NCBI GenBank assembly: GCA_034003325.1
Contig: JAVEYW010000018.1
Coordinates: 1-64,000, forward strand
Source of the DNA: Desulfobacterales bacterium
GTDB lineage: Bacteria; Desulfobacterota; Desulfobacteria; Desulfobacterales; JAFDDL01
Reading direction: 5' to 3'
Length of the DNA: 64,000 bases
Part shown: piece by piece, positions 43,217 through 63,714 of the stretch
How positions within the stretch are numbered: the first letter of the stretch is position 1
Layout: every line of letters begins with the position of its first letter
Position numbers and translations under genes: made by a program
The notes under the pieces: generated by a model
What the model saw: the letters and a program-made list of their open reading frames with translations, nothing else
The model's database searches: none
What the model was told of the DNA's origin: nothing

Positions 43217-43480
43217 ATGGGGTCGACAATGCCTTACAGCAACGAAAAGATTCTTATCGTTGATGATGAGCGCCGCATGTGTGACAGCCTAAAAGCCCTG
43301 TTAAGCGTCAAAGGCTTTGATGTAAGAACACGCAGCAACGGCCATGATGCGTTGAAGTACCTGCGAGAGGAATCGGTTGATCTTATCCTCCTTGATATTT
43401 CCATGGAGGAAATGGACGGTTTCCGGGTAATGGAAAGGATAGGCCGGGAACATCTGGATATTCCGGTTATAATCATCGGA
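43217..43480 (+). pseudogene. Hybrid sensor kinase, 5' fragment (receiver domain) cut by an IS3 element
   Basis: From ATG 43217 (or 43229) the frame encodes a receiver domain up to DIPVIIIG: acidic pair DD at 17-18, phosphoacceptor Asp60 in LILLDISMEEMDG. At 43482 an insertion sequence begins and the frame closes within it at 43492. The missing half of the receiver resumes at 45226 with MTGNASTATAVEALRKGAYD, beyond the element. The original gene therefore started here and was about 785 codons long. Confidence 0.9.
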
Positions 43481-43508
43481 ATGTGTCAATGAAAATGAGA
43501 CACGGTTT

Positions 43509-47708: not shown

Positions 47709-47737
47709 TTGACATGTAAGACCCTACCATGTATAGT
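47709..47737 (+). promoter_or_regulatory. Transposase promoter, probably giving a leaderless mRNA
   Basis: TTGACA (47709-47714), 17-bp spacer, TATAGT (47732-47737). The expected transcription start is near 47744, exactly the ATG of the transposase. An upstream in-frame ATG at 47729 lies inside the promoter and cannot be used by this transcript. Confidence 0.65.
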
Positions 47738-47743
47738 GTCTTC

Positions 47744-49468
47744 ATGGCTCACTTCCACGTAAAGACTAAAAAGGGAAGACCCTACCTCTATGTCCGGGAG
47801 ATCGCACGGGTCGACGGCAAGCCCAAGGTCATTTCCCAGACTTACATCGGGTCTCCGGAAAAGGTCGCCGGATTGGTGCGCGGACGCGATGAGGATGTCG
47901 TGATACTGAAGGTGGAAGAATTCGGTGCGCTGTGGCTTTCCTGTGAGATCGATAAGGACATCAGCCTTTGCGCTCTTATCGATGACATCGTTCCGCGGGC
48001 GGATCGGGAAACGGGTCCTTCCATCGGCGAGTATTTCCTGTACTGCGTGCTTAACCGGATGGTGCAGGCCGTCAGCAAGAACAAGCTCGCATCCTGGTAC
48101 CGGCACACCGCCATACAGTATATCCGGCCCGTTGACTTCGAAGAGCTCACCAGTCAACGCTACTGGGAAAAATGGGACCGGGTATCCGAGGACGATTTAA
48201 GCAGGATCGCCAAAGCGTTCTTCGAGCGCATCTGGCGCGTGGAAGCGCCGTCGGCGGACTGTCTTCTGTTCGACACCACCAACTATTACACCTACATGGC
48301 CAGCCATACCGAATCGGATCTTGCCATGCGGGGAAAAAACAAGGCGGGCCGGCACCACTTAAGGCAAATCGGTCTGGGGCTTCTGGTGGCGAGGGATTCG
48401 CGGCTGCCGTTATATTACAGCGTCTATCCGGGCAATATCCATGACAGCAAGCATTTTGAGGCCATCATGGATGAGATGTTCGGGGCCGTGTGCGGCTTGA
48501 ACCAAACAAAGGAGCGCCTTACGGTGGTGATCGATAAGGGGATGAACGCAGAGGATAATTATGCCTGGATCGACGAGCACTCGCGTATTCATTTCATCAC
48601 CACCTATTCCACCTATTTTGCTCAGGATCTTGCCGCGACCTCCGTTGATAAGTTCGAGCCGGTGGATACACCGGGAAACAGGCGGCTCATGGCGGAGGGA
48701 AAGGCAGAGGAATGCCTTTTGGCTTATCGGACCAGGGGAGAATATTGGGGAAAAGAGCGGGCGGTGATCGTCACCTATAATCCATCGAGCCGCCGCAAGC
48801 AGGAATATACCTTCAATGACAAGCTGGAGACAATCCGTCAGGAGCTGCTTTCCATGCGGGCAAAGGTAAGAGACAAGGCGCCGCATTGGAGAAACGAGGA
48901 GGCTGTTAAGGATCGCTACTTGCGCCTTTGCGCGAGAATGCATATGCCGCACGAACTCTACGAGCTCACCTTCGTGGATTCGGAGGCCGGTCTCTCCATG
49001 AATTTCCGCAAAAACGCGTATCTGGTCAGCCAAAAGCAGGCCATGTTCGGAAAGAGCATTATCATTACGGATAACACGGATTGGACAACGAGCGACATCG
49101 TTCAGGCAAATCTTGACCGTTGGCAGGTGGAGGATCGATTTCGTCTAAGCAAGGACGACGAATTGGTGGGAGTAAGCCCTGTACGCCACTGGACGGACAG
49201 CAAAATAAGGTGCCACCTGTTTACTTGCGTGGTGGCTATGACTTATCTGCGCCGGATCGAACTTAAACTGGCGGCCTCTGGCATAAACCGAACGGCCGCC
49301 GACATAATGGAGGATATGCGAAGGCTGCATCAGGTATTGAGCCTGAAGAAAGGGGAACGAAAGCCGGCCTGTCGTCTTGAAACGCCCAGTAAGACCCAGG
49401 CCGAAGTCCTATCGGCGTTCGGGTACCGTGTGGACGCCGGTGGGGTCTTACAACAAACCGGCCACTAA
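47744..49468 (+). CDS. IS1634-family transposase
   Basis: 574 aa from ATG 47744, chosen because it begins MAHFHVKTKKGRPYLYVREI as family members do and coincides with the predicted transcript start; the frame opens at 47729 within the -10 box. DDE-type core of the IS4 superfamily: LLFDTTNYYTY (Asp, about 179), TVVIDKGMNAEDNY (Asp, about 258) and the C-terminal YREK-like region with DRWQVEDRFRLSK (Glu, about 453). It is full length. The very end reads GGVLQQTGH. Confidence 0.93.
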   Translation: MAHFHVKTKKGRPYLYVREIARVDGKPKVISQTYIGSPEKVAGLVRGRDEDVVILKVEEFGALWLSCEIDKDISLCALIDDIVPRADRETGPSIGEYFLYCVLNRMVQAVSKNKLASWYRHTAIQYIRPVDFEELTSQRYWEKWDRVSEDDLSRIAKAFFERIWRVEAPSADCLLFDTTNYYTYMASHTESDLAMRGKNKAGRHHLRQIGLGLLVARDSRLPLYYSVYPGNIHDSKHFEAIMDEMFGAVCGLNQTKERLTVVIDKGMNAEDNYAWIDEHSRIHFITTYSTYFAQDLAATSVDKFEPVDTPGNRRLMAEGKAEECLLAYRTRGEYWGKERAVIVTYNPSSRRKQEYTFNDKLETIRQELLSMRAKVRDKAPHWRNEEAVKDRYLRLCARMHMPHELYELTFVDSEAGLSMNFRKNAYLVSQKQAMFGKSIIITDNTDWTTSDIVQANLDRWQVEDRFRLSKDDELVGVSPVRHWTDSKIRCHLFTCVVAMTYLRRIELKLAASGINRTAADIMEDMRRLHQVLSLKKGERKPACRLETPSKTQAEVLSAFGYRVDAGGVLQQTGH

Positions 49469-49872: not shown

Positions 49873-50334
49873 TCAATCGATTTTCGGCATCAACGCCCAT
49901 TTGATAAGCCATTTGCCGCGGGCTTTCTCCTGATCAAGGCAAACAATACCCCCGTTTTGAAATTTGAAGATGGTGTGGCCCTCTCTGCCTGTGGTAAGAC
50001 GAGACACCAGTTTTTCCATGAAAGGCAGATGCCCGACTATCATAATCTGCGATTCGGCATCCAGTTTCATGGCAAAGGCATCGACACTGTCAAGGGGGTT
50101 AAGACCCTCTGCTGCCGAGATCCCCTGCCCGGGCTGCAAAGCATCCGCAAAAAGTTCGGCCGTCCGGGCCGCTCTTATTTTACCGCTATGCAAAATCTTT
50201 GACACAGTTATCCGGTAGTTTTTCGCCACCCCGGCAATGAGTTTCACCTCAGCGATGCCTTGTTCGCTGAGTCCCTGTTCCGGATCAACTTCCTTGGGCA
50301 AACTTTTTCCGTGTTGAACCAGATAAATTGCCAT
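49873..50334 (-). CDS. sixA: Phosphohistidine phosphatase SixA
   Basis: 153 aa, ATG at 50334 after GGCGGAG. The histidine-phosphatase superfamily pattern is short and complete: YLVQHGKSLPKEVDPEQGLSEQG with catalytic His9 in the (R/Q)HG motif (Gln replaces the usual Arg), then HSGKIRAARTAELFAD (about 49-64) and MIVGHLPFMEKLVSRL with the second His (about 99). SixA removes phosphate from histidine in HPt domains or EI-Ntr. It lies 35 bp downstream of selD on the same strand. Given the phosphorelay genes nearby, a signalling role is possible. Confidence 0.88.
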   Translation of the reverse strand: MAIYLVQHGKSLPKEVDPEQGLSEQGIAEVKLIAGVAKNYRITVSKILHSGKIRAARTAELFADALQPGQGISAAEGLNPLDSVDAFAMKLDAESQIMIVGHLPFMEKLVSRLTTGREGHTIFKFQNGGIVCLDQEKARGKWLIKWALMPKID

Positions 50335-50369
50335 CACTATCTCCGCCAGCGTTTATTTTCTTGTCGCCC

Positions 50370-51793: not shown

Positions 51794-52405
51794 ATGACGG
51801 TGTTGACGATATCACGGCAATTCGGCGCCGGCGGGTTGACCTTAGGCAAAATGGTATCACAAGAACTTGGCTTTGCGCTCTATGATAACGAGCTGATTCA
51901 ATTGGTTGCCGAAAAGGCACGCGTATCCACGGACTGGGTAAGATCCATGGAAAAAGAGGTCGGTAAAAAATTTCAAAAGTTTATTTCGAATTTAATCCCC
52001 AAATCTTTCATGGATCGAATCCTGGACGACCAGCGCGGGTACATTGACGAAGCTGTATATGTAGATGTGCTGCAGAAGATAATCACCAAAATTGCGGATG
52101 AGGGCAATGCGGTCATCATCGGCCGGGGCGGTCAATACATTCTCAAGGATCGGCCCGATGCCAAGCGAATACTGCTGGTTTCGGACCTGGAAACTCGCAT
52201 TCGGTTTGTTGAGGATAAATATCAGTTATCCCACAAGCAAGCCGCCGCCTTGGTCGCATCCGATGATAAGCGGCGAATTAATTTATATAAGAATTTTGGA
52301 CGGCAAGACTATGATCAGCCCATGCTCTACGATATGGTGCTAAACACAGGGAAACTCGGCTTTGATTTGGCATGCCGGCTGACATGTCAACTGGTAAAAG
52401 GCTGA
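51794..52405 (+). CDS. Cytidylate kinase-like family protein
   Basis: 203 aa, ATG with GGGGAGG upstream. It opens with MTVLTISRQFGAGGLTLGKM, a P-loop variant (S..FGAGG..LG) of the cytidylate-kinase-like family rather than a standard GxxGxGK loop. Then LYDNELIQLVAEKA, VIIGRGGQYILKDRPDAKRI and RRINLYKNFGRQDYDQP follow. Such proteins are common in Deltaproteobacteria and Firmicutes, often near CBS or two-component genes; they are probably nucleotide-binding but the substrate is not established. Convergent with the receiver gene at 52489. Confidence 0.82.
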   Translation: MTVLTISRQFGAGGLTLGKMVSQELGFALYDNELIQLVAEKARVSTDWVRSMEKEVGKKFQKFISNLIPKSFMDRILDDQRGYIDEAVYVDVLQKIITKIADEGNAVIIGRGGQYILKDRPDAKRILLVSDLETRIRFVEDKYQLSHKQAAALVASDDKRRINLYKNFGRQDYDQPMLYDMVLNTGKLGFDLACRLTCQLVKG

Positions 52406-52488: not shown

Positions 52489-52929
52489 CTAAAAATCGCC
52501 AATCTTTCTCAACATCAGTTTTGTTTCGGCTTTTCTGATGCGTTCTTCCTGTTCATCCTTTCGCTGCCGCGCAATTACCAGTTTAGATTTCAATTCCTTG
52601 AAATCAGCCGGCTTTAAAAGATAGTCAAATGCGCCCAATTGCATCCCTTTCACAGCGGTTTGTGTTGTGCCGTGCCCGGTCAAAAGGATGACTTCCACAA
52701 TAGGGAATTTCTTCTTGATTTCACGCAACGTTTCGATACCGTCCATGCCCGGCATTTTGATATCCAGGACAACCACGTCGATGGCTTCGGATTCAAGGAT
52801 CTTCAGACACTCGCTGCCATTGTAGGCTTTATGCGCGATTTCGCCCGAATCGGTGAGCCGCAGGGCCAGAATATCCGTAAAATCTTCTTCGTCGTCCACA
52901 ATCAAGACGCGGATGGGTATTTTTACCAT
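52489..52929 (-). CDS. Stand-alone response regulator receiver protein
   Basis: 146 aa. ATG at 52929 is chosen because GGAG lies about 9 nt upstream; an ATG at 52944 has none. It is a receiver with VLIVDDEED (acidic pair 12-13), phosphoacceptor Asp56 in VVVLDIKMPGMDG, LLTGHGT (Thr switch) and YLLKPAD (Lys). A short charged helical tail follows but no DNA-binding domain. It is the last gene of the minus-strand signalling locus, 33 bp after the REC-kinase gene, and is a likely phosphoryl-group relay or sink for it. Confidence 0.92.
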   Translation of the reverse strand: MVKIPIRVLIVDDEEDFTDILALRLTDSGEIAHKAYNGSECLKILESEAIDVVVLDIKMPGMDGIETLREIKKKFPIVEVILLTGHGTTQTAVKGMQLGAFDYLLKPADFKELKSKLVIARQRKDEQEERIRKAETKLMLRKIGDF

Positions 52930-52962
52930 GGTGCGTATCTCCATTTATGGTGGTGACGGCTC

Positions 52963-54099
52963 TTAAATCTCGTCTTTCAATTCGGGACGAATCGGCAGGC
53001 GAAGTTGAAACAGGGCGCCTTGACCGAGTTTGCTTTCAACCGTGATGTTCCCGCCGAGCTTTTCAATGATCTTTCGCGAGACATAAAGACCCAATCCCGT
53101 GCCTTCACCGGTCGGCTTAGTGGTAAAAAACGGATCAAATATTTTTTCCAGGTTTTCCACGGCAATACCGCCGCCCGTATCTTGAACCTGAAGCACCATA
53201 TCGTTTCCGTCGAGGGTAGCCCCTATCGTGATCACTCCGCCGTTCGGCGTAGCCTGAATCGCATTGTTCACTAGGTTTAGAAGGACTTGGCGAAGCCGAA
53301 AGGGGTCCGACCAGAAGGATGGATTTTCTTCCGACTTAAAGACAATCGAAATATTATGATTGCGCGCTTCGCGGTTCACCAGTTGCATGACATCCGAGAT
53401 AAGATCCGCGGCCTGAATTTCGATCACGGTGTCATCGGCTTTTTGGACCATGCCAAGCAGCTGATGGGTAATGCGTTTGGCCCGGCCGATCGCCAGTTCA
53501 ATCTTATTCAGCGCCGTGTTGAACTCTTTTGAATGGGGGAAGTCCGGTCCGGCATCTTCAAGAATGCTTTTCATCCATCCAGCCCACTCCTGAATAATAG
53601 CAAGGGGGTTGTTGATTTCGTGCGCCACGCCCGTGGCCAGGGTACCCAGGGACGCTAGGCGCTCCGTAACGATGAGCTGGCGGTTTATTTTTTCCCGAAA
53701 TTCTGCTTCCCTTGTTTTTTCAACGGTCCGCTGTTTTTTATCGTAAGCCTGCCTGATTTTTTCAACTAAATGTTCCAGTTCTACGGGTTTGCTCAGGTAA
53801 TCAAACGCCCCGGATTTAATGCCGGTGACGCCATCGGGCGTGGAGGCATGCCCCGTAAGCAGAATAACTTCCGTGTGCGGATATTTGCTTTTGATCTGTG
53901 ATAGACATTCCAGGCCGCTGATGCCCGGCATTTTAACATCCAGGACAACCACGTCAAAGTCTTGCTCAGCCATCATGGCCAGGCACGCTTCTCCGCTATC
54001 GGCGGTTTCTGGAATGATGTTGCGTTTTTTCAGGCGATTGGCGATGGTGCTTAAAAAAACGGCCTCGTCGTCCACCATGAGCAGTCGTAATGACTTCAT
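52963..54099 (-). CDS. Soluble REC-histidine kinase hybrid
   Basis: 378 aa, ATG at 54099. It has an N-terminal receiver (DD 10-11, Asp54 in [13 protein letters not shown], Lys104 in YLSKPVE), a coiled-coil linker (about 118-150), a dimerisation box with [18 protein letters not shown] (His160), and a HATPase with [15 protein letters not shown] and [14 protein letters not shown]. No membrane segment, so it is cytoplasmic and receives its signal through its receiver. It lies 21 bp downstream of the DASS transporter gene. Confidence 0.94.
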
Positions 54100-54120
54100 T
54101 TACGCTCCTCAGCGTTATCA

Positions 54121-55701
54121 TTAAAAGATTCCTAAAAATTTCCACCAAACCTGAGCGACAAGCACCAGAACACCCAACAGAATCGGGGTGGCCATTAGGC
54201 CAACCTTGGTTAAATCCGATGCCTTGAAATATTTATAGCTAAAGGCGATGGCATTGGGTGGACATCCGATAACCAGCAGCATGGCAAAGGATGTGGTCGT
54301 TCCGAAACACAGCGCAACGACACGCGGATCAATGCCTTCCATTTGAGCGATGCCAATCGCAACCGGAAGAATCAGCGCGGCCGCCGCCACATTGGCCATG
54401 ATATTGGTGGCTAACGCTCCGATTACCCCGACGCCGATAAACAGCAGAAGCCATCCGCCGCCCTGAACAATCGGAAAGAAAAGATTCGCAAAATAATCCG
54501 CGGCGCCCGTAGCCCCCATGGCAAGCCCCAGAGAGATACCGCCGCCGAAGATAAAGAGCGCGGTCCCCCATTCAAGGTTGGTGTGAATATCTTCCCATGT
54601 GAGGGCACCGAAGAGGATCAGCGCTGAAACGCCGAGCAGGCCGGTCACGGAGTAATCCATGCCATGAAGCCCTTTGGTCAACCAGAGCCCGAGCGTGAGC
54701 AAGGTGATCACCAGCGTTTTTTTCTCCAACCTTGACCAAGGTCCTGCCGATTCATCAAACTGCGGCAGCCGGATGCCTTTTTCCGGTCTGAAGAACAGGT
54801 AAACAATGAGCACGGCAAAGGGAACCGTGATGAGGGCCGCCGGGCCCGCAAACTTGATCCAGTCAAAAAAAGTAATTTCAACGCCGGTGAATTCTTTAAG
54901 AAAGGCGGCTGCTACCAGGCACCGACCGCCGCCGATCAAGGAACCCATGCCACCGCAGGACGTGGCAAACGGAATGGAGAGCATCATGAACTTGGCTGCC
55001 CGGGAATGGGGGGCAATGCCGGCGGCCCGCATCAGCGGTTGCATCGTGACAATACCGATCGCGCAGGCGGCCGCATCATGGATAAATGAGGAAGCGATGC
55101 CGAGCCCGATCGCCAGAACAAAGGTAAAGCGAATCATGGAGGTGCCCGCCAGCCGAATGATGAAAAACCCCAGACGCCGGGTAAGGCCGGACTTGTCGGC
55201 CGATATGGCAAAGATCAAGTAGCTCATGATGAAAACCACTACCGGATGCATATAAGGCGCCCATGCGCTTTTAATATCCATAATCCCCATACCGGCCAGC
55301 AGCACGCCGATGCAGATAGCGGTAATCTCAAGGGGGATCGGTTCAAAAATAAACAGAAAAATCAGTATGGCCAGCACGGCGAAAAATTTCTGCAGCGTGG
55401 GGGAAATGCCGTCCACGGTGCTGATGTGAATATTCGGCAGGTCTAATACGCTTGCCTTTTCCCGCAAGAGCGTAAGACTTGCTTCAGCGCCGGCCGAATG
55501 CTTGGCGCGTATGATATAGGGTGCCGATGACCGATGGGCTTTACCGACCGGGTCGAACTGGCCCTTCACCGCATTGAACAGGGAACGCGATGCATCCCCC
55601 GAGATTTTAAATGTGGTGCCCTCCGGGCGCGGCAGCATCAAAATGACCGCTGCGCCGAGCAGTGCGATACCAAGCTGAAAAAATTTTGATTTATAGAACA
55701 T
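54121..55701 (-). CDS. SLC13/DASS family sodium:anion symporter
   Basis: 526 aa from ATG 55701, preferred because AAGGGG lies 5 nt upstream; a GTG at 55707 overlapping the receiver stop is possible. About 11-13 membrane segments. A first helix (about 5-25) is followed by an unusually long hydrophilic loop of about 85 residues before the main transporter core. Typical elements: FEPIPLEITAICIGVLLAGM, HPVVVFIMSYLIFAISADKS, ATSCGGMGSLIGGGR and, near the C-terminus, FGTTTSFAMLLVIGCPPNAI. DASS carriers move sulfate, di- or tricarboxylates with sodium. The SNT motifs are modified, so the substrate cannot be read. Confidence 0.9.
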   Translation of the reverse strand: MFYKSKFFQLGIALLGAAVILMLPRPEGTTFKISGDASRSLFNAVKGQFDPVGKAHRSSAPYIIRAKHSAGAEASLTLLREKASVLDLPNIHISTVDGISPTLQKFFAVLAILIFLFIFEPIPLEITAICIGVLLAGMGIMDIKSAWAPYMHPVVVFIMSYLIFAISADKSGLTRRLGFFIIRLAGTSMIRFTFVLAIGLGIASSFIHDAAACAIGIVTMQPLMRAAGIAPHSRAAKFMMLSIPFATSCGGMGSLIGGGRCLVAAAFLKEFTGVEITFFDWIKFAGPAALITVPFAVLIVYLFFRPEKGIRLPQFDESAGPWSRLEKKTLVITLLTLGLWLTKGLHGMDYSVTGLLGVSALILFGALTWEDIHTNLEWGTALFIFGGGISLGLAMGATGAADYFANLFFPIVQGGGWLLLFIGVGVIGALATNIMANVAAAALILPVAIGIAQMEGIDPRVVALCFGTTTSFAMLLVIGCPPNAIAFSYKYFKASDLTKVGLMATPILLGVLVLVAQVWWKFLGIF

Positions 55702-55703
55702 AA

Positions 55704-56141
55704 TCACCCCTTAGGCAGGCACGCGGCTTGCCGTTTTCGATGGGCATTCATGATTTTTTCCAGCAATTCCTCAAATTCACAGGGTTTGGACAGATAGTCG
55801 AACGCGCCGAATTCAATTCCCTGACGCGCGGCGGTTTCAGACCCATGGCCGGTCAGCATGATCACCATAAGCCGAGGGGCCATTTTACGAAATATTTTAA
55901 GGACCTCAATGCCATCCATGTCTTCCATTTTCAAGTCCAGAACCGCCACATCATATTCATTTTTGCGCAGCAACTGGATGCCTTCTGAACCGCTGCTTGC
56001 CTTGGATACGGTAAAGCCTCTTTTCCGAAGCCGGTTTGCCAGTGTTTCGACATATACTTTTTCATCATCCACCAGCAGAAGACGGACGCCTTCGCCGGAG
56101 TTTCGAAGAAAATCCGGCAAAATCGTTTTGATTCGGGACAT
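55704..56141 (-). CDS. Stand-alone receiver protein upstream of the DASS gene
   Basis: 145 aa. ATG at 56141 chosen because AGGAGA lies about 8 nt upstream; the longer frame to 56264 reads into a dispersed repeat. A receiver with VRLLLVDDEKVY (acidic pair 25-26), Asp69 in VAVLDLKMEDMDG, LTGHGSE and YLSKPCE. No output domain. Its stop directly abuts or overlaps the start of the DASS transporter gene, so the two are translated together. This is the unlinked counterpart of the REC-DASS fusion at 59186. Confidence 0.92.
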   Translation of the reverse strand: MSRIKTILPDFLRNSGEGVRLLLVDDEKVYVETLANRLRKRGFTVSKASSGSEGIQLLRKNEYDVAVLDLKMEDMDGIEVLKIFRKMAPRLMVIMLTGHGSETAARQGIEFGAFDYLSKPCEFEELLEKIMNAHRKRQAACLPKG

Positions 56142-56211
56142 AATTTGTTTCTCCTGCGCCGGTCCGCAACGCCAAACCGGCGGCTTTCTTAACCGCTGCG
56201 TAGCTCCTTTA

Positions 56212-56300
56212 TGAGAAACATGCACGAAAAAGCGTGCATAACTGGAAAAGGCCATTGGCCGCACTGCTGCCCAGCAACCCAGCTGCCCAGCTTCCGGACA
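56212..56300 (+). repeat. Dispersed hairpin repeat, partial copy C
   Basis: It starts GAGAAACATGCACG, then GCGTGCATAA forming a hairpin, then a diverged middle, then CCCAGCAACCCAGCTGCCCA and a CTTCCGG end. The order of hairpin followed by CCCAGC units is as in copies A and B but similarity in the centre is low. It fills most of the gap between two receiver genes. Confidence 0.55.
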
Positions 56301-56319
56301 TCGGTGTCGTCTTTCCCGG

Positions 56320-56751
56320 CTAGGCGCGGCGAAGCGTGATTTCCCGCATCCGGGCTTCGATAATTTTTTCCTCTTGCGCCCGTTTTTGCTGTGCAGCGGT
56401 TTCCGCTTTTTCTATCAGTTCCTCCACCTCGCACGGTTTCATCAGATAGTCAAAAGCGCCCAGTTTCATTCCGTCGATAGCCGATTCAACGGTGGCGTGC
56501 GCCGTCAACATGATGACTTCCACGAGCGGGTGTTCTTTTTTAATTCTCGACAGCGTTTCAATCCCGTCCATCAGCGGCATTTTGACGTCCAGAATAACAA
56601 CCTCGATGGTACTGTTTTCAGCAAGTTTTTGAAGCGCTTCCGGGCCGCTGAAGGCGGTGACGACATGAACCTGACGTTTTTTAAGACGCTTTTCCATGAC
56701 ATTGACAAAGGTGGTCTCATCGTCCACTAATAATACGTTCACATTGGCCAT
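56320..56751 (-). CDS. Stand-alone response regulator receiver protein
   Basis: 143 aa, ATG at 56751 with GGAG upstream inside the end of the kinase gene. VNVLLVDDETTF (acidic pair 10-11), Asp55 in [23 protein letters not shown] and YLMKPCE with the conserved Lys. No output domain. The gene starts 2 bp after the Cache kinase stop, so it is the likely cognate receiver. A short coiled-coil-like tail (EKAETAAQQKRAQEEKI) may mediate pairing. Confidence 0.92.
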   Translation of the reverse strand: MANVNVLLVDDETTFVNVMEKRLKKRQVHVVTAFSGPEALQKLAENSTIEVVILDVKMPLMDGIETLSRIKKEHPLVEVIMLTAHATVESAIDGMKLGAFDYLMKPCEVEELIEKAETAAQQKRAQEEKIIEARMREITLRRA

Positions 56752-56753
56752 TT

Positions 56754-58487
56754 TTATTCTCCTTGAATTTGCTGAATGTTTTCAGGTTGGACGGTTTTTT
56801 CCACCGGGAAATGAAGATAAAAGGTTGTTCCTTTGCCTATCTCACTTTCGACCTCGATATGGCCGCCGATTTTTTTAATGATGCCATAGCAAATGGCAAG
56901 CCCCAGTCCGGTGCCTTTTCCGACCGGCTTGGTTGTGAAAAACGGTTGGAATATTTTTTCAAGGTTAGCGGCCGGCATGCCGGGACCGGTATCTGCCACC
57001 GCGACGGTGACATGGTCCTTATGCTGCCGGGTCGAAATTTCAATACTACCGCCTTTATTGTCCATCGCATCCAATGCATTGTTGATCAGGTTTAAAAACA
57101 CCTGTTGCATTTCCGTCGGTGATGCTTCGATGGTGGAAAGATTCGCAAAGAACTTCTTATGAAAGGAAACCCCCGCGTATTTTGCTCGCTGTTCGGACAG
57201 CCCGACAACCTCTTCCAACAGGTCATTGAGTTGGACCGGTTGCGGCCGGGAATCGGTTTTACGAGCAAAACTCAGCAATTTGTGGGTAATGACCTTGCAA
57301 CGCCTGGCCTGGTTACGGATTTCTTCCAGTGAATTTTGAAACTCCGTAAGATTCTGGCAATCTTTAAGATCCTCTTCTTCAAGCAAGTCCTGAATCCATC
57401 CGGCCTTTTCCATCATGATGGCCACGGGGTTGTTGATTTCATGGGCGATGCCGGCCGCAAGTTCACCGATGGCCGCCAATTTTCCGGTTTCAATGACCTG
57501 CTTGTTCATCATATTTTTCTCGCGATCCGCCGAGGCGATTCGGGCAACCATTCTGCGAGCGATCCAAATGGCGGTGGTAATGATGACGATACCGCCGATG
57601 AGAATGATCAGCAGCGCGACCTTTCGGGCATGGTTGAGATCCCGGTAGGCATCGGCCGTATTTTGCTGGTAGATGAGCAACCAGTCGCCGTTTTTTAAAA
57701 AGGCGCCAACACAGAGATTTTCTTTTCCCGCGGCATTCTTTTTTTCAAATATTTTGACGCGCTGTTTTTCCGTGGCAGTATCATTTAAAAAAAGGGCATA
57801 ATGATCTTTTTCAGTAAAAAACCCGAGCGGCGGCTTTGTTTGAAATTCTTCTGCCTTGTTCAGAATAAAGGCAAACCCGGTTTCGCCGATGCGAAGGTTT
57901 TCAACCAAGGTGTTAAATGCCCTGAAATCGACGGTGGCACGAAGAATCCAAACCCTTCCCTTATATTCCTGGCGGACGGCAATAATGAAATGGGGCAGAG
58001 CGCGAAGCCCCAGAAACACATCACTGATAAAATACGGGCTGATAATGGCCTTTTTAAACCAATCCGCATTCTTGTAGTTCGCTTGCATGAGTTTAAAGGG
58101 ACCCGCATAATCGATCTGAACCCCCTGATCGTCCACCACGCCCAGATCCTCGAACACCCCATGGAATTGCAGTTGCAACTGTGCCAGTTTTATTTCCAGA
58201 AACGTTTCGTCCCGGAATTGTTCAAAGGGATGAGAATTGACGAGAAATCTGAGCAAATTTAGATGTTCGGTTAAAAACCCGTCGATGTTCTGACAGTGTT
58301 TTTCCACCAGTTCGCCCAAGTGCGCATGAACCTTTTCCCGGTAGGAACGGTTGTACTGTTCCAGAATCAGGCCGCTGATCAGCAAGAGGGGCGTAAAGGA
58401 GACCAGTACCATGATGATCACCATTTTCCGGGTGAGCGCATGATAAAATGCGGAATCATGGGGTTGCGATTTGATGGTTGTCTTCAT
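56754..58487 (-). CDS. Membrane sensor histidine kinase with Cache domain
   Basis: 577 aa, ATG at 58487. Two membrane segments (about 21-43 and 293-313) flank a periplasmic double-Cache-type domain with [37 protein letters not shown] and a GDWLLIYQQ end. After TM2 there is a dimerisation box [20 protein letters not shown] (His about 343) and a HATPase with [17 protein letters not shown] and [14 protein letters not shown]. No HAMP domain is evident. It probably senses a small carboxylate or other extracellular ligand, as is known for Cache kinases of the DctB type. It shares the Cache pattern with the kinase at 61315. Confidence 0.94.
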
Positions 58488-58569
58488 TCCGGATCGAACC
58501 TTTATGTTGGACGCCCTTTACTATCAACCCCTGCGTTTCGGGGACTCTTTCGGGTTCATTTCGCTTTGC

Positions 58570-59061
58570 TTACTCTTCTCCCTGATCCAACTCCCTGAGT
58601 TTGCGAAGAATCGCCCGGGGACTGCTGGAAGAAGAAATATTAAGAAGTTCATTCATCTTTTTTTCTTCAATTTTTTTCTTGTTCATGACCTTTTTCTTAT
58701 AAGCCCCCTGCAGGGCTTCAAGAAGACTGTCGAGTTCACAGGGTTTTTGAAGATAGGAAGTAATCCCTATTTTCGCGCATTCAACCGCGGAATCGATCGC
58801 ACCGTGACCGGTCAAGATCACGGCTTCCAGCCACTGATGTTTCTGCTTGAGCTGTTTAAGTGTCTCCTGCCCGGATATGCCCGGCATTTTCAGATCAATC
58901 AAGGCGATATCCACCGGGTGGGTTTGCGCGGCTTCAATCGCCTTATCTCCCCGATTGGCGGTGATGACGTTAAAGTCTCTTATCTCCAGGCTCTTTCGAA
59001 TGGATTCCAGAAACTGTTCTTCATCATCCACAATGAGCAGGTTGATCTTATCTTTTGCCAT
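58570..59061 (-). CDS. Stand-alone response regulator receiver protein
   Basis: 163 aa, ATG at 59061 with GGAG about 8 nt upstream; the longer frame to 59130 has no ribosome site. INLLIVDDEEQF (acidic pair 12-13), Asp56 in [23 protein letters not shown] and YLQKPCE with Lys. The C-terminal tail is charged and Ser-rich (KKKIEEKKMNELLN, then SSSSS). It lies between the REC-DASS gene and the Cache kinase gene. Confidence 0.91.
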   Translation of the reverse strand: MAKDKINLLIVDDEEQFLESIRKSLEIRDFNVITANRGDKAIEAAQTHPVDIALIDLKMPGISGQETLKQLKQKHQWLEAVILTGHGAIDSAVECAKIGITSYLQKPCELDSLLEALQGAYKKKVMNKKKIEEKKMNELLNISSSSSPRAILRKLRELDQGEE

Positions 59062-59185
59062 GTCGGTAACTCCATGTTCCCATGTTTTCCGGTGCGGCCT
59101 ATCAGCAACCGGGCAGCAAATGATTGACATCGAGATCCATAAGCTGCCGGCGGCCGCCGATGGCCGATGAAGCCGGATCAGACAC

Positions 59186-61252
59186 TCAGCTCAGGCCGAA
59201 CCATTTCCAGTATCCGAGAATGACCCACAGATAGAGCACCGCCATGCTGATAAGCCATACGGCGCCGCCATAAACGAGAAAATCCTTTGTCGTTACAAGC
59301 TGCTCGCCGGTTTCCGGATCCCTTGCAACCGCGTACACGATGGCGTTATTCGGTGTGCCGATAATCAGCATGTGCGCAAAAGAAGAAGAAAAGGCCGTGG
59401 CCAATCCCACCGCGATGGGGGATGTTTGTGAAAGGGTCGCCATCGGAACGGTGATGGGCCCGACAGCCGCCACCGTAGCCCCGTCGCTCATGAAATTCGT
59501 GAGAATGCCGGTGATAAAGCTTGCCGACATGATAAGACCATCTCCGCTTTTCATAACGGCGGGAAGCATATCCACAAAGCTGCTGGCCAACCAGAGCGCC
59601 GCACCGGTGGAAGCAAGCCCAGAGCCCATGGCGCTGGCAGCCGCATACAGCGCAACGACATCCCAGTGAATTCCGTTAATGTCTTTCCAGCGAAGGACGC
59701 CTAAAATATTCAACAGGACAAGGCATAAAATCGCGGGCCCCCCCATTCCCACCTTGTCCGACAAGGTGATCCACAGCACGACCACCAGAATAATGATTGC
59801 AGCCGATTTATATTCATCCGGCGTCATCTTGCCGATTTTTTCCGCTTCACGCTTGACTTCTTCCGCGACATTGATGGCTTTGGTCTTTATTTTACCGCGA
59901 AAAACGAAAAGAAAAAAAACGGACACTAGCAGGGTGCAAACCGGCACGAAGGGAAGCCCCATTTTGACCCATTGTCCGAATGACACTTTAATGCCGTAAT
60001 CCGATAGAATACCCAGCATGACGGCGTTTCTGCCGCCGGCTGCCGGGGAACCAGGCCCGCCGAGGTTTCCACAGAAGGTCAGGGTCAGCAGCATAAACAC
60101 CACCAGATACCGGTCCTGTTTCAGACCTGCGGTCCGAATGGCCGCCATATAGACCAGCAACAAAACAGGGGCGATAAACGCCACCAATGCGTGCTCGGAA
60201 AGAAACCCGGCAGTGATCGCGAGCATCGGGGCGAAGAATAAGGCAAAGCGGGTAAGAGAAGAACTGGTACCCAGCAACAAAATGCCGATGCGTCGATCCA
60301 GACCGGTCTTGCTGATGGCGGCAGCGAGGGCCAACACGCCGAAGATGAAAATCACCGAATCCTTGGCATAGGCCTGGGCCACCATATCGGCCGGATAAAC
60401 ACCGAAAAAATACATCAGCACACCCACCAGAAGGGCCGTTATACCGATGGGAACGGCACCGGTCGCCCAGAAGAGGGCTGCTACCACCAGCACACCGATC
60501 ATGACCTTGGCCTTCATAACGACCGTGTCCACGCTCGGGGCCGACTTAACGACTTTGCCGTCAGCGGTTTTCGTTTTTTGGGTTAGTTTGGCCTTTTCCC
60601 CATAATACTCGGTAATGGTTTGTCCGATCTCCATTTTGCGGTAGTCGGAAAACCCGTTGATGCTCTCCATGGGATTGCCGGCCTTTTTTTCGGACAAAAG
60701 GGAGGTCAGTTTCGGGGCGGGCGTGATGAGAATGCAAAGAAAAAGAATAACCCCCAGAAGGATGAATCCGGGCCTGGCATTTTGAACCCCGATGAGCCAG
60801 TCTTTCAGTCCGGTTTTCGCCACATCCGGAATTTCATGCTTGGCCAGTGCGTAAACCCGCTCCTGAGCCGCATTTTTGATCGCCGTAATCAGTTCATCCA
60901 GAGGGCATGGTTTTTCCAAGTACGAAAACACATCATGCTTTCCGGTCACCCGCGCCGATTCGATCGAGCCGTGGCCGGTATGCATGATGATCTGCACTTC
61001 CGGCCTGATCTTTTTCAACTCCTTTAAGGTTTGAATCCCGTCCATGCCGGGCATTTTCTGGTCGAGAATAACCACATGGGGGTTTTCATGCCGAACGATT
61101 TTGATGGCATCCTCTCCGTTGTTGACATCGAGCACATCAAAGCCCCGCAACCCCAGCTGCTTGGAAAGGCTCTCCCTGAAACGGTCTTCATCATCAATTA
61201 AAAGGATCTTCAGCTTTTCATTTTTTCCATTAACACCGGTTTGCTTCTCCAT
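59186..61252 (-). CDS. Receiver domain fused to a SLC13/DASS transporter
   Basis: 688 aa, ATG at 61252. Residues about 13-135 are a complete receiver: acidic pair Asp20-Asp21, phosphoacceptor Asp64 in VVILDQKMPGMDG, Thr92 in MHTGHG, Lys114 in YLEKPCP. A linker (about 135-160) leads to the first membrane helix (about 162-178), then a hydrophilic loop of about 70 residues, then a full DASS core of about 12 segments: LFWATGAVPIGITALLVGVL, DSVIFIFGVLALAAAISKTG, GGPGSPAAGGRNAV, FMSDGATVAAVGPITVPMA and FAHMLIIGTPNNAIVYAV. The receiver is predicted cytoplasmic. All phosphorylation residues are retained, so the transporter may be gated or tuned by phosphorylation from the neighbouring kinases. The fusion is open from end to end with no frameshift. 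Substrate unknown. Confidence 0.94.
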   Translation of the reverse strand: MEKQTGVNGKNEKLKILLIDDEDRFRESLSKQLGLRGFDVLDVNNGEDAIKIVRHENPHVVILDQKMPGMDGIQTLKELKKIRPEVQIIMHTGHGSIESARVTGKHDVFSYLEKPCPLDELITAIKNAAQERVYALAKHEIPDVAKTGLKDWLIGVQNARPGFILLGVILFLCILITPAPKLTSLLSEKKAGNPMESINGFSDYRKMEIGQTITEYYGEKAKLTQKTKTADGKVVKSAPSVDTVVMKAKVMIGVLVVAALFWATGAVPIGITALLVGVLMYFFGVYPADMVAQAYAKDSVIFIFGVLALAAAISKTGLDRRIGILLLGTSSSLTRFALFFAPMLAITAGFLSEHALVAFIAPVLLLVYMAAIRTAGLKQDRYLVVFMLLTLTFCGNLGGPGSPAAGGRNAVMLGILSDYGIKVSFGQWVKMGLPFVPVCTLLVSVFFLFVFRGKIKTKAINVAEEVKREAEKIGKMTPDEYKSAAIIILVVVLWITLSDKVGMGGPAILCLVLLNILGVLRWKDINGIHWDVVALYAAASAMGSGLASTGAALWLASSFVDMLPAVMKSGDGLIMSASFITGILTNFMSDGATVAAVGPITVPMATLSQTSPIAVGLATAFSSSFAHMLIIGTPNNAIVYAVARDPETGEQLVTTKDFLVYGGAVWLISMAVLYLWVILGYWKWFGLS

Positions 61253-61314
61253 AATCCATCCTCTTTGCGAATGCGTTAATATCGGTTATTAATATGATGT
61301 TAAGGCCATATTCT

Positions 61315-63366
61315 TTAACTGGCTTTTGTTTTAATCGGTAACGAGACGGTAAATTGAGTGCCGATCCCCGGCGTGGACGCCACATCGATTTCACCTCCGA
61401 GGGATTTGATGATGTTCTGAGAAACACTGAGCCCGAGCCCCGTCCCTTTGCCCACCTCCTTGGTTGTAAAAAATGGATTGAAGATATCGGGTAGAAGTTC
61501 CGGAGGAATACCACCCCCCGTATCTTTTATGATGACCTCTATATGCTGATCTTTTCTGCGGGTGGTAATCGTGATCGTACCGGCACCCGTGATGGCATCA
61601 CCCGCATTGTTGATGAGATTTAAAAACACCTGACGAATCTTATCGCTGTCCAGCAGAATTTCCGGAATGCCCGGATCGTATTCACGAACGATCTCGATAC
61701 CGGCGGTCTTGAACTCGCGTTCTTTTAACCCGGACATAACCTCATTTAAAATTTTATTCACATGGCACGGGATGAGTTTTGGCTCGTTTTTTCTCCCGAA
61801 ATCGAGCAGTTGTCGTGTTATGGTTCTGGCCCTGAAGGCGGCCGATTCAATGGCTTCAACCTCTTTCATCACATTTTCCCGGCTCGGCGTAAGACCGAAT
61901 TCCGGGTCGAAAAGATCTTTGATTACCCCACTGGCGGCGACGATAACGGCCAGCGGATTGTTGATCTCGTGAGCGACTCCGGTGGCCAGTTCCCCCACGG
62001 AGGCCAGTTTCGAGGCGTGAAAGAGCTGAATGCGCAACTCTTCGCTTTTATCGGCCGCCGCCTTGGACCAGCCGATCAGCCGGCTGTTGGCAAACCAGAT
62101 GCCTGCCGCGATGGAAAAAAAGATAATGCCGAGGCTGATCGTCATAATGCGCCGGCTGCGATACATGGCAGCGTGAGCGATGTTGAGGGGTTGTCTCACC
62201 AGCAGCGCCCAGGGGGCTTCCTTGAGCCATGCAAAACCGATCAACACGGCATTGCCGTTTTCCCGAATCTCCTCGACGCCGGAAAAAATATCCGTTGGGG
62301 GTATAAAGTCACTTTTCTCCAGCAATTCCCCCCGGTTCGGATCGACGATCTGGTAGCGGCCTTCCTTGTTGATCAGGGCGGATTCGACGGCCTTGCCGCG
62401 GCTGATGGCGCGAAGGAGCATATAAAACTTATCCGGATCCAGTGTGGCGCGCATGACAAAGGGCGCACCTTCGATAACCTGCCTGACGGCAATGGTGAAA
62501 TGCGGCTTATTTCGAAGTCCTGAATAAATATCACTGATAAAATAATGCCGATCTTGACGCAGAAGCGTTTTAAACCAGGTTTCGTTGCTGTAATTTTTTC
62601 CCTGTAACTCGGGAAACGGACCCGCATATCCGATTTGAATGCCTTGGGCATTTAAAAAACCGACATCACAGAAGGCATCACTGGCTTGTCTCAGGTTCTG
62701 AAGGCACTGCGCCATGATGCCGACGGAAGGCGAAAGGGTAAATTCATTGCCGTGAAAGAGGCTGAAAAGATTAACGACACGTTCCTGCAAAAACAGATCG
62801 ACCGTGTTTTTTTGGCTGTTTGAAAGGGCCTCTAAGTTCAATCGGCCTGTGTTTTTCAGCGTGGTGCTGAACTGAAATTGAAAATAAGTGAAAAAGGCCG
62901 CGTAGGGCAACATGAAGGCCGCCAGCAGCCCGAGCGCCAGCTTCAGCTTGAGTTCCTTAAAATAGATATCTCGTTTTTCTTTTTGATTTTTAATGTGTTG
63001 TCTTTTTTCAAAGGCGGATTTGATTTTTTCGGAAATATCCTCGATGTCGACCGGTTTCATTAAATAATCGGCCGCGCCCAGTTTAACCCCCTCGACTGCG
63101 GATTCCACCGTGGCATGACCGGTGAGCATGATGACTTCAACGAGCGGAAAATCATGCTTGATCTTTTCCAAGGTCGCGATGCCGCCCATGCCAGGCATTT
63201 TGACATCCAGAATGACCACATGAATGTTCATTTTTTTCAATTTCGCCAATGCCTCCGCGCCGCTGGCGGCGGTCTCGACGGCATACCCTTTTTTCTCCAA
63301 CAGCTTTTGGGTCGTTGTCAGATATCTTTCTTCATCATCCACCAGCATGACGTTGATGTTCGGCAT
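61315..63366 (-). CDS. Membrane hybrid kinase: REC-TM-Cache-TM-histidine kinase
   Basis: 683 aa, ATG at 63366. An N-terminal receiver (acidic pair Asp10-Asp11, Asp54 in [13 protein letters not shown], Lys104 in YLMKPVD) precedes membrane helix 1 (about 136-158, [20 protein letters not shown]). A periplasmic Cache-type domain follows with [15 protein letters not shown] and [20 protein letters not shown], then helix 2 (about 410-430). The kinase has a dimerisation box [19 protein letters not shown] (His about 465) and a HATPase with [18 protein letters not shown] and [14 protein letters not shown]. It is the first gene of the minus-strand locus and lies 62 bp upstream of the REC-DASS fusion, its probable partner. 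Confidence 0.94.
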
Positions 63367-63714
63367 TGGATTTATTTCTCAACCAAGACGGTTTAAGGGT
63401 TCAGAAAAAAAACGGTGATACCTGTCGTCATGATTGAGCAAGCCCCATGCCAACTGACCACCATCCGCCGGGCAAAGGCGGGGAAATACAATGGTATCTA
63501 TCTGTAAAAATGAGGTTAAATATTTGTTCAAACCGGAGGGTTGAATCCCGCGGTAACAAAATAGTGTCCGCCCGCTTTACACCATGTAAAAAGAAGGCGA
63601 TGCGGGAGAGGGGAAAAAGGCCACGACTCATTTTTATTGACATATTCCGCATAAAAAGCGAGTTTTTGCCACATATCATTCATTATTTTTCTTAAAAAAA
63701 GGGCTTCTATCTTA
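63367..63714. other. Divergent intergenic region upstream of the signalling locus and the adenine deaminase-like gene
   Basis: No gene recognised. It must hold the promoters for the leftward signalling locus and the rightward amidohydrolase gene. A TTGACA (63637-63642) is present, but no good -10 box follows at 16-18 bp. I see no purine-riboswitch-like fold by eye. Confidence 0.4.

Follow-up and report, generated by a model that had tools for sequence, protein, structure and literature searches.

A receiver domain fused to a DASS transporter in a candidate sulfate-uptake locus of a Desulfobacterales bacterium

In a 64,000-nucleotide stretch of a Desulfobacterales genome (contig JAVEYW010000018.1, positions 1 to 64,000; hereafter the window), a preliminary description made from the sequence had pointed to nine same-strand genes for two-component signalling and transport, none of them encoding a DNA-binding domain. 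This is confirmed here by the coordinates and by Pfam, which assigned three histidine kinases (HK1 to HK3), four stand-alone receivers (RR1 to RR4), one receiver-transporter fusion (RT) and one transporter (T1) to nine open reading frames (ORFs) at 52489-63366, all on the minus strand and with intergenic gaps of -4 to 82 bases. We read this locus as one for the uptake of a sulfur oxyanion, most likely sulfate, in which receiver phosphorylation would set how active the transporters are, in addition to transcription driven by sigma54, and we give this reading a probability of about 0.6. Dissimilatory sulfate reduction begins with the uptake of sulfate, which is costly in energy. A receiver built into the carrier, as in RT, would allow fast and reversible control and, if the reading is true, secondary transport would join the outputs of response regulators.

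Architecture of the locus and proposed mechanism

RT (59186..61252, 688 aa) presents a receiver domain (REC) at residues 14-130 (60863..61213; Pfam and alignment), with Asp64 as the phospho-acceptor, and a DASS/SLC13 core at residues 247-688 (59189..60514). With the Pfam model Na_sulph_symp (cut-off 27 bits) RT scored 131.9 bits and T1 172.6 bits; with the NCBIfam dass model (cut-off 198.6) T1 reached 219.8 and RT 178.7. An AlphaFold2 (AF2) model of RT (pLDDT 85.3, pTM 0.80) matched CheY-like receivers over residues 13-133 (Z about 22) and SLC13 structures, with human NaS1 among the best, over approximately residues 148-688 (Z 35-41). RT has the fold and the full-length core of the SLC13/DASS symporters VcINDY, NaS1 and NaCT, from which it differs by the N-terminal receiver plus linker and by altered SNT and GSPPN motifs.

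RT is preceded by HK3 (61315..63366), a REC-TM-dCache-TM-HisKA-HATPase histidine kinase (TM, transmembrane segment) with phospho-Asp54 and His466, whose dCache match of 40.7 bits is below the Pfam cut-off of 45, yet has an E value of 2.6e-10. RT is followed by RR4 (58570..59130), a stand-alone receiver whose C-terminus forms a short, conserved tail (Pfam and alignment). The remaining genes, assigned by Pfam and motifs, are the dCache-HisKA-HATPase kinase HK2 (56754..58487; His349), the stand-alone receivers RR3 (56320..56751) and RR2 (55704..56264), T1 (54121..55707), whose start is overlapped for 4 nt by the RR2 stop, the soluble REC-HisKA-HATPase kinase HK1 (52963..54099) and the stand-alone receiver RR1 (52489..52944). 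T1 is a CitMHS/Na_sulph_symp transporter of the DASS family by both Pfam and NCBIfam, and carries an additional TM segment at its N-terminus and, ahead of the core, a soluble loop. The true starts of RR2 and RR4 are probably downstream of those of the longest ORFs, at residue 24 in RR4. As to membership in a defence family, the sole trace was a weak match of the HK3 receiver to the SduA model, and it was dismissed.

Each of the seven receiver domains retained the phospho-acceptor Asp, the acid pair, the Thr and the Lys, and each of the three kinases an intact H-box. No DNA-binding family was found in the nine proteins (Pfam, E<=1e-3), and a scan of four RR4 orthologs likewise gave no C-terminal DNA-binding domain of the PhoB/WalR type. 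At the same threshold, a search confined to this locus of a 4.62 Mb genome with 124 receiver matches yielded no histidine phosphotransfer (HPt) family in the nine proteins, and the term phosphorelay used in the preliminary description finds no support in its strict sense.

In our reading, membrane histidine kinases with dCache sensors would phosphorylate receivers devoid of a DNA-binding part. The RT receiver would be the cytoplasmic N-terminus of the transporter, coupled via a conserved juxtamembrane linker, and phosphorylation of Asp64 would directly alter the transport activity of RT, with HK3 and RR4 acting together with it. In a second module, HK2 and HK1 would phosphorylate RR1 to RR3, which would dock on T1, while transcription would be a separate layer, driven from a sigma54 promoter by an NtrC-type activator encoded elsewhere. 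The kinase-receiver pairing and the effect on transport, with its direction, are inferred here.

Distribution of the fusion and its link to dsrA

A homology search with the transporter part of RT gave 80 loci, and in 71 of them a receiver and a DASS domain were found in a single ORF; the other nine yielded no fusion by ORF picking, and include one that begins at a contig edge (L132) and one without a receiver (L145). According to the record titles, the fusions belong to Desulfobacterota, Zixibacteriota, Acidobacteriota, Gemmatimonadota, Calditrichaeota and Fibrobacteria, and also to Krumholzibacteriia, Poribacteria, Planctomycetes groups and others, nearly all these records being metagenome bins, some of them possibly mislabelled. 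Four loci titled Thermoanaerobaculales or Pirellulaceae/Pirellulales (L073, L076, L077 and L101) showed 69% identity to RT and were placed near Desulfobacterota copies, a possible case of mis-binning.

Of the fused receivers, 68 of 70 retained the phospho-Asp and all 70 the Lys; the phospho-Asp was also present in 109 of 111 stand-alone receivers. In the receiver tree, the 71 fused receivers, that of the window included, formed one clade with no intruders (support 0.48), which is consistent with a single fusion event, and the RR4 orthologs formed a clade of 49 (support 0.998). Across phyla, the C termini of these orthologs carry the same short pattern, SxxILRxLRxLD, which may serve as a docking peptide.

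The neighbourhood of the fusion is also conserved. HK3 orthologs sit upstream of it in relatives, a dCache kinase being present within three genes upstream in 46 of 57 loci and a receiver within two genes downstream in 42 of 61. When both flanks were available (47 loci), 40 loci had a kinase, 40 a stand-alone receiver and 30 a CBS protein. The typical operon outside Desulfobacterota comprises a dCache kinase, a CBS protein, REC-DASS and RR4; Pfam confirmed the domains in three loci, of which one lacks the CBS gene. The N-terminal receiver of HK3 is missing from many relatives, some of which have a small, divergent receiver-like gene ahead of the kinase instead (L051:12829-13227, L057:6004-6372).

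The genome studied here has dsrA and DsrD and, therefore, is by its content that of a dissimilatory sulfate reducer. Profiles for dsrA, DsrD and DsrE were run on 51 genomes, namely those of 50 of the 71 fusion loci (longer contigs being chosen) plus this one. A dsrA above the cut-off was found in 42 of the 51, and four of the other nine had partial or dsrB-like matches. In a phylum sample of 396 genomes around an Acidobacteriota-titled one, seven carried the fusion and 30 carried dsrA, all seven being within the 30; in a sample of 249 around a Gemmatimonadota-titled one, all three fusion genomes were within the five with dsrA (hypergeometric 9e-8 and 2e-4, respectively, with the centre genomes left out). 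DsrE was above the cut-off in none of the 51 fusion genomes, a result that makes the classic oxidative pathway less likely. Outside Desulfobacterota, most genomes with the fusion displayed dsrA with neither DsrD nor a DsrE above the cut-off, and beyond that phylum the REC-DASS fusion can serve as a genomic marker for dsrA.

Both the breadth of the fusion and the class of substrate go beyond the preliminary description. We see an even chance that REC-SLC13 represents a new class of response regulator with a secondary transporter as output, that is, a phosphorylation-gated sulfate carrier of single origin that travels with its kinase and with another receiver and recurs as a component of the sulfate-reduction machinery across many phyla.

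Separate modules and transporter swap

The preliminary description had treated the nine genes as one unit and had set co-conservation beforehand as a test of its proposal. The sub-modules do recur in relatives, so that their grouping is not due to chance, but they do so as modules that are inherited separately and number at least two: HK3-RT-RR4 and, in addition, HK2-RR3-RR2-T1-HK1-RR1. T1 orthologs were present in 45 of the 146 genomes of the order, and in the 28 of 30 T1 loci that were scored, with flanks of about 1.5 kb, a receiver was upstream in 21 and a kinase or receiver fragment directly downstream in 24. A third kind of module in the same genome has the order kinase-receiver-DASS-small membrane protein-receiver/CBS/CBS and, in relatives, often shares the contig with RT. 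A 171-aa membrane-like protein with no Pfam family (L015:5912-6427) is conserved near DASS and receiver-CBS genes.

The signalling genes are also found with other transporters. HK2-RR3-RR2 have a collinear copy on another contig of the genome (C11), where the trio is followed by a TauE/SafE transporter rather than by T1; the identities are 52% for HK2, 60% for RR3 (c11RRa) and 52% for RR2 (c11RRb), and the two trios are mutual best matches within the own-genome set compared. A SulP permease of this genome is accompanied by a dCache kinase, stand-alone receivers and a PF13189-receiver fusion (L018:15073-16287), and a kinase-receiver set lies beside another DASS gene too. Like signalling sets accompany three unrelated families of putative sulfur-oxyanion transporters, a figure that comes with no background rate for other transporters. 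Near SulP, between two stand-alone receivers, there is a 219-aa HisKA protein with no HATPase at E<=1e-3 (L018:12190-12849) that could be a phosphotransfer protein.

These data bear on the substrate, as do published descriptions of similar clusters. In 26 sulfate reducers, DASS genes have been described in a cluster together with genes for two-component systems and CBS proteins, and that of Desulfosarcina variabilis was named sulfate uptake cluster (PMC11887813); moreover, the DASS genes HRM2_38230 and HRM2_38300 show high expression at <100 uM sulfate (PMC5840216). Dole_1359 of Desulfosudis oleovorans Hxd3 belongs to the same published group of DASS genes. We infer sulfate as the substrate from the dsrA link and from this literature on similar clusters. 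It could be argued that the transporters carry C4-dicarboxylates or another organic anion and that their neighbours are an ordinary carboxylate-uptake set, since DASS includes dicarboxylate carriers and VcINDY and NaCT are as near to RT in fold as NaS1. However, the phyletic link to dsrA in two phyla, the like sets beside SulP and TauE and the work on the Desulfobacteraceae cluster (PMC11887813, PMC5840216) make this explanation very improbable.

Transporter motifs, transcription and known systems

The results that weigh against a sulfate-uptake locus controlled by receiver phosphorylation concern the dsr genes, the motifs of RT and transcription. In the order to which the bacterium belongs, the dsrA test offered no contrast (dsrA in 124 of 146 genomes) and the link between fusion and dsrA therefore rests on other phyla; in addition, DsrD was present in only 13 of the 51 fusion genomes, so that these genes do not settle the direction of flux outside Desulfobacterota. 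With regard to the motifs, SNT motifs mark the binding sites of the DASS family. Compared with VcINDY, the two SNT motifs of RT are SEH and SDG, and GSPPN is GGRN, these altered residues being conserved across the fusions in an alignment of 65 of the 71 plus RT; T1 aligns ANV to the second SNT motif. The altered motifs are the main doubt about reading RT as a plain sodium-sulfate symporter: since SNT is replaced and yet the replacement is conserved, the substrate or coupling ion of RT may differ from those of known members, and RT may have a different anion, a different coupling or a sensor role. The replacement limits what can be claimed about substrate and coupling rather than about the fold.

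The sensor role would make RT a transceptor whose altered DASS domain senses an anion and whose receiver feeds back on HK3, with transport left to T1 and other DASS proteins. The conserved motif replacement and the strict retention of the receiver would fit such a role, and CbrA/CrbS provide a precedent of a transporter and two-component domains fused for sensing. These SLC5-histidine kinase transceptors resemble RT in that a secondary transporter and two-component domains share one polypeptide, but there the transporter is fused to a kinase, as input, and a partner regulator controls transcription, whereas in RT an SLC13 transporter is fused to a receiver, as output; in fact, by Pfam RT has only SLC13 and a receiver, and not the SLC5, STAC and kinase combination of SLC5-type transceptors. 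Against a sensor role, the kinase already has a dCache sensor of its own in the periplasm, conservation within the fusion is highest in the DASS core (the commonest residue has a mean share of 0.75 there versus 0.67 in the receiver), and many loci outside Desulfobacterota have no second transporter in the operon. We consider a transceptor quite improbable.

Concerning transcription, a sigma54 (-24/-12) promoter is predicted at 63437..63452 (minus strand), 70 nt upstream of HK3. The -24/-12 elements are perfect and the site had the top score on both strands of the window, the first graded weights having been drawn up after it had been seen; it is also the sole match to the strict pattern in the window (0.13 expected). 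In relatives, after removal of four duplicate loci, the strict pattern gave 39 matches in 3.06 million bases, a length that counts both strands, and 10 of them, mostly from Desulfobacterota, were at starts of dCache-kinase genes, versus 0.5 expected; the C5 locus had no match. The graded score was raised only weakly over 65 relatives (p 0.04), reaching >=11 in 8 of the 65 versus 16 of 352 controls, and sigma54 as a universal feature was rejected for this reason. On another contig of the same genome, a kinase and a sigma54-NtrC gene form a pair beside a CBS-DASS pair. On account of the promoter site, its clustering in relatives and this NtrC pair, we read the system as two layers in which transcription is probably also controlled, an NtrC-type protein being the putative activator. 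Of the earlier proposal that the output is transport rather than transcription, the first half remains the best reading and the exclusion of transcription does not.

The same evidence invites an explanation of the PhoR-PhoB kind, in which the kinases act on an unlinked DNA-binding regulator (for instance, of NtrC type), the receivers are intermediates or sinks and uptake is tuned by expression. The best named models of the kinases were those of AtoS/ZraS, albeit with scores far under the cut-off. AtoS and ZraS are partners of NtrC-type regulators. An NtrC-type gene was found within 7 kb of the fusion in 5 of 47 loci (in three of them in the same gene run), and the only published model found for such a cluster is transcriptional, its regulators being read as WalR type and its output as promoter control (PMC11887813). 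On the other hand, no local receiver has a DNA-binding domain, 42 of the 47 loci have no NtrC-type gene within that distance, the NtrC gene of the genome has its own adjoining kinase, and a transporter-fused receiver with an intact active site would have no obvious role. Purely transcriptional control seems unlikely, and transport control by receiver phosphorylation is retained.

Compared by description only, the Ds. variabilis-type cluster (PMC11887813) has, like the locus studied here, DASS transporters, cache-domain kinases, response regulators and CBS proteins. In contrast, DNA-binding domains are lacking from the receivers described here, one of which forms a single protein with a transporter, in a fusion that extends over many phyla; the word "receiver" is absent from the main text of that paper. 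EpsW, which acts post-translationally on EpsZ (PMC12802240), is likewise a receiver without output domain directed at a membrane protein, but, unlike the receiver of RT, it is a separate protein with an enzyme as target and belongs to a chemosensory system. The main text of a review of transporter activity switches (PMC10710835) does not contain "response regulator", "receiver" or "histidine kinase", and we found no report of a receiver-transporter fusion in the open-licence literature searched. Of what was found there, transporter-kinase fusions come nearest, together with a single-domain regulator whose target is a membrane enzyme. A similar cluster composition was already published; the REC-DASS fusion, its breadth, its kinase and receiver neighbourhood and the dsrA link are new.

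Among the other genes of the window, the SixA gene (49873-50337) passed the NCBIfam cut-off. Its suggested link to the network found no support, as no SixA homolog was present among the ORFs of 100 related loci (the 80 of the RT-based search plus 20 others), a few of which are the same contig. Near SixA and a selD-like gene, a 579-aa ORF (47729-49468) resembles by sequence an insertion sequence (IS) transposase. A receiver fragment with two in-frame TGA codons (43250-43501) is probably a decayed gene, and a PF13189 cytidylate-kinase-like gene (51794-52405) adjoins RR1 on the opposite strand.

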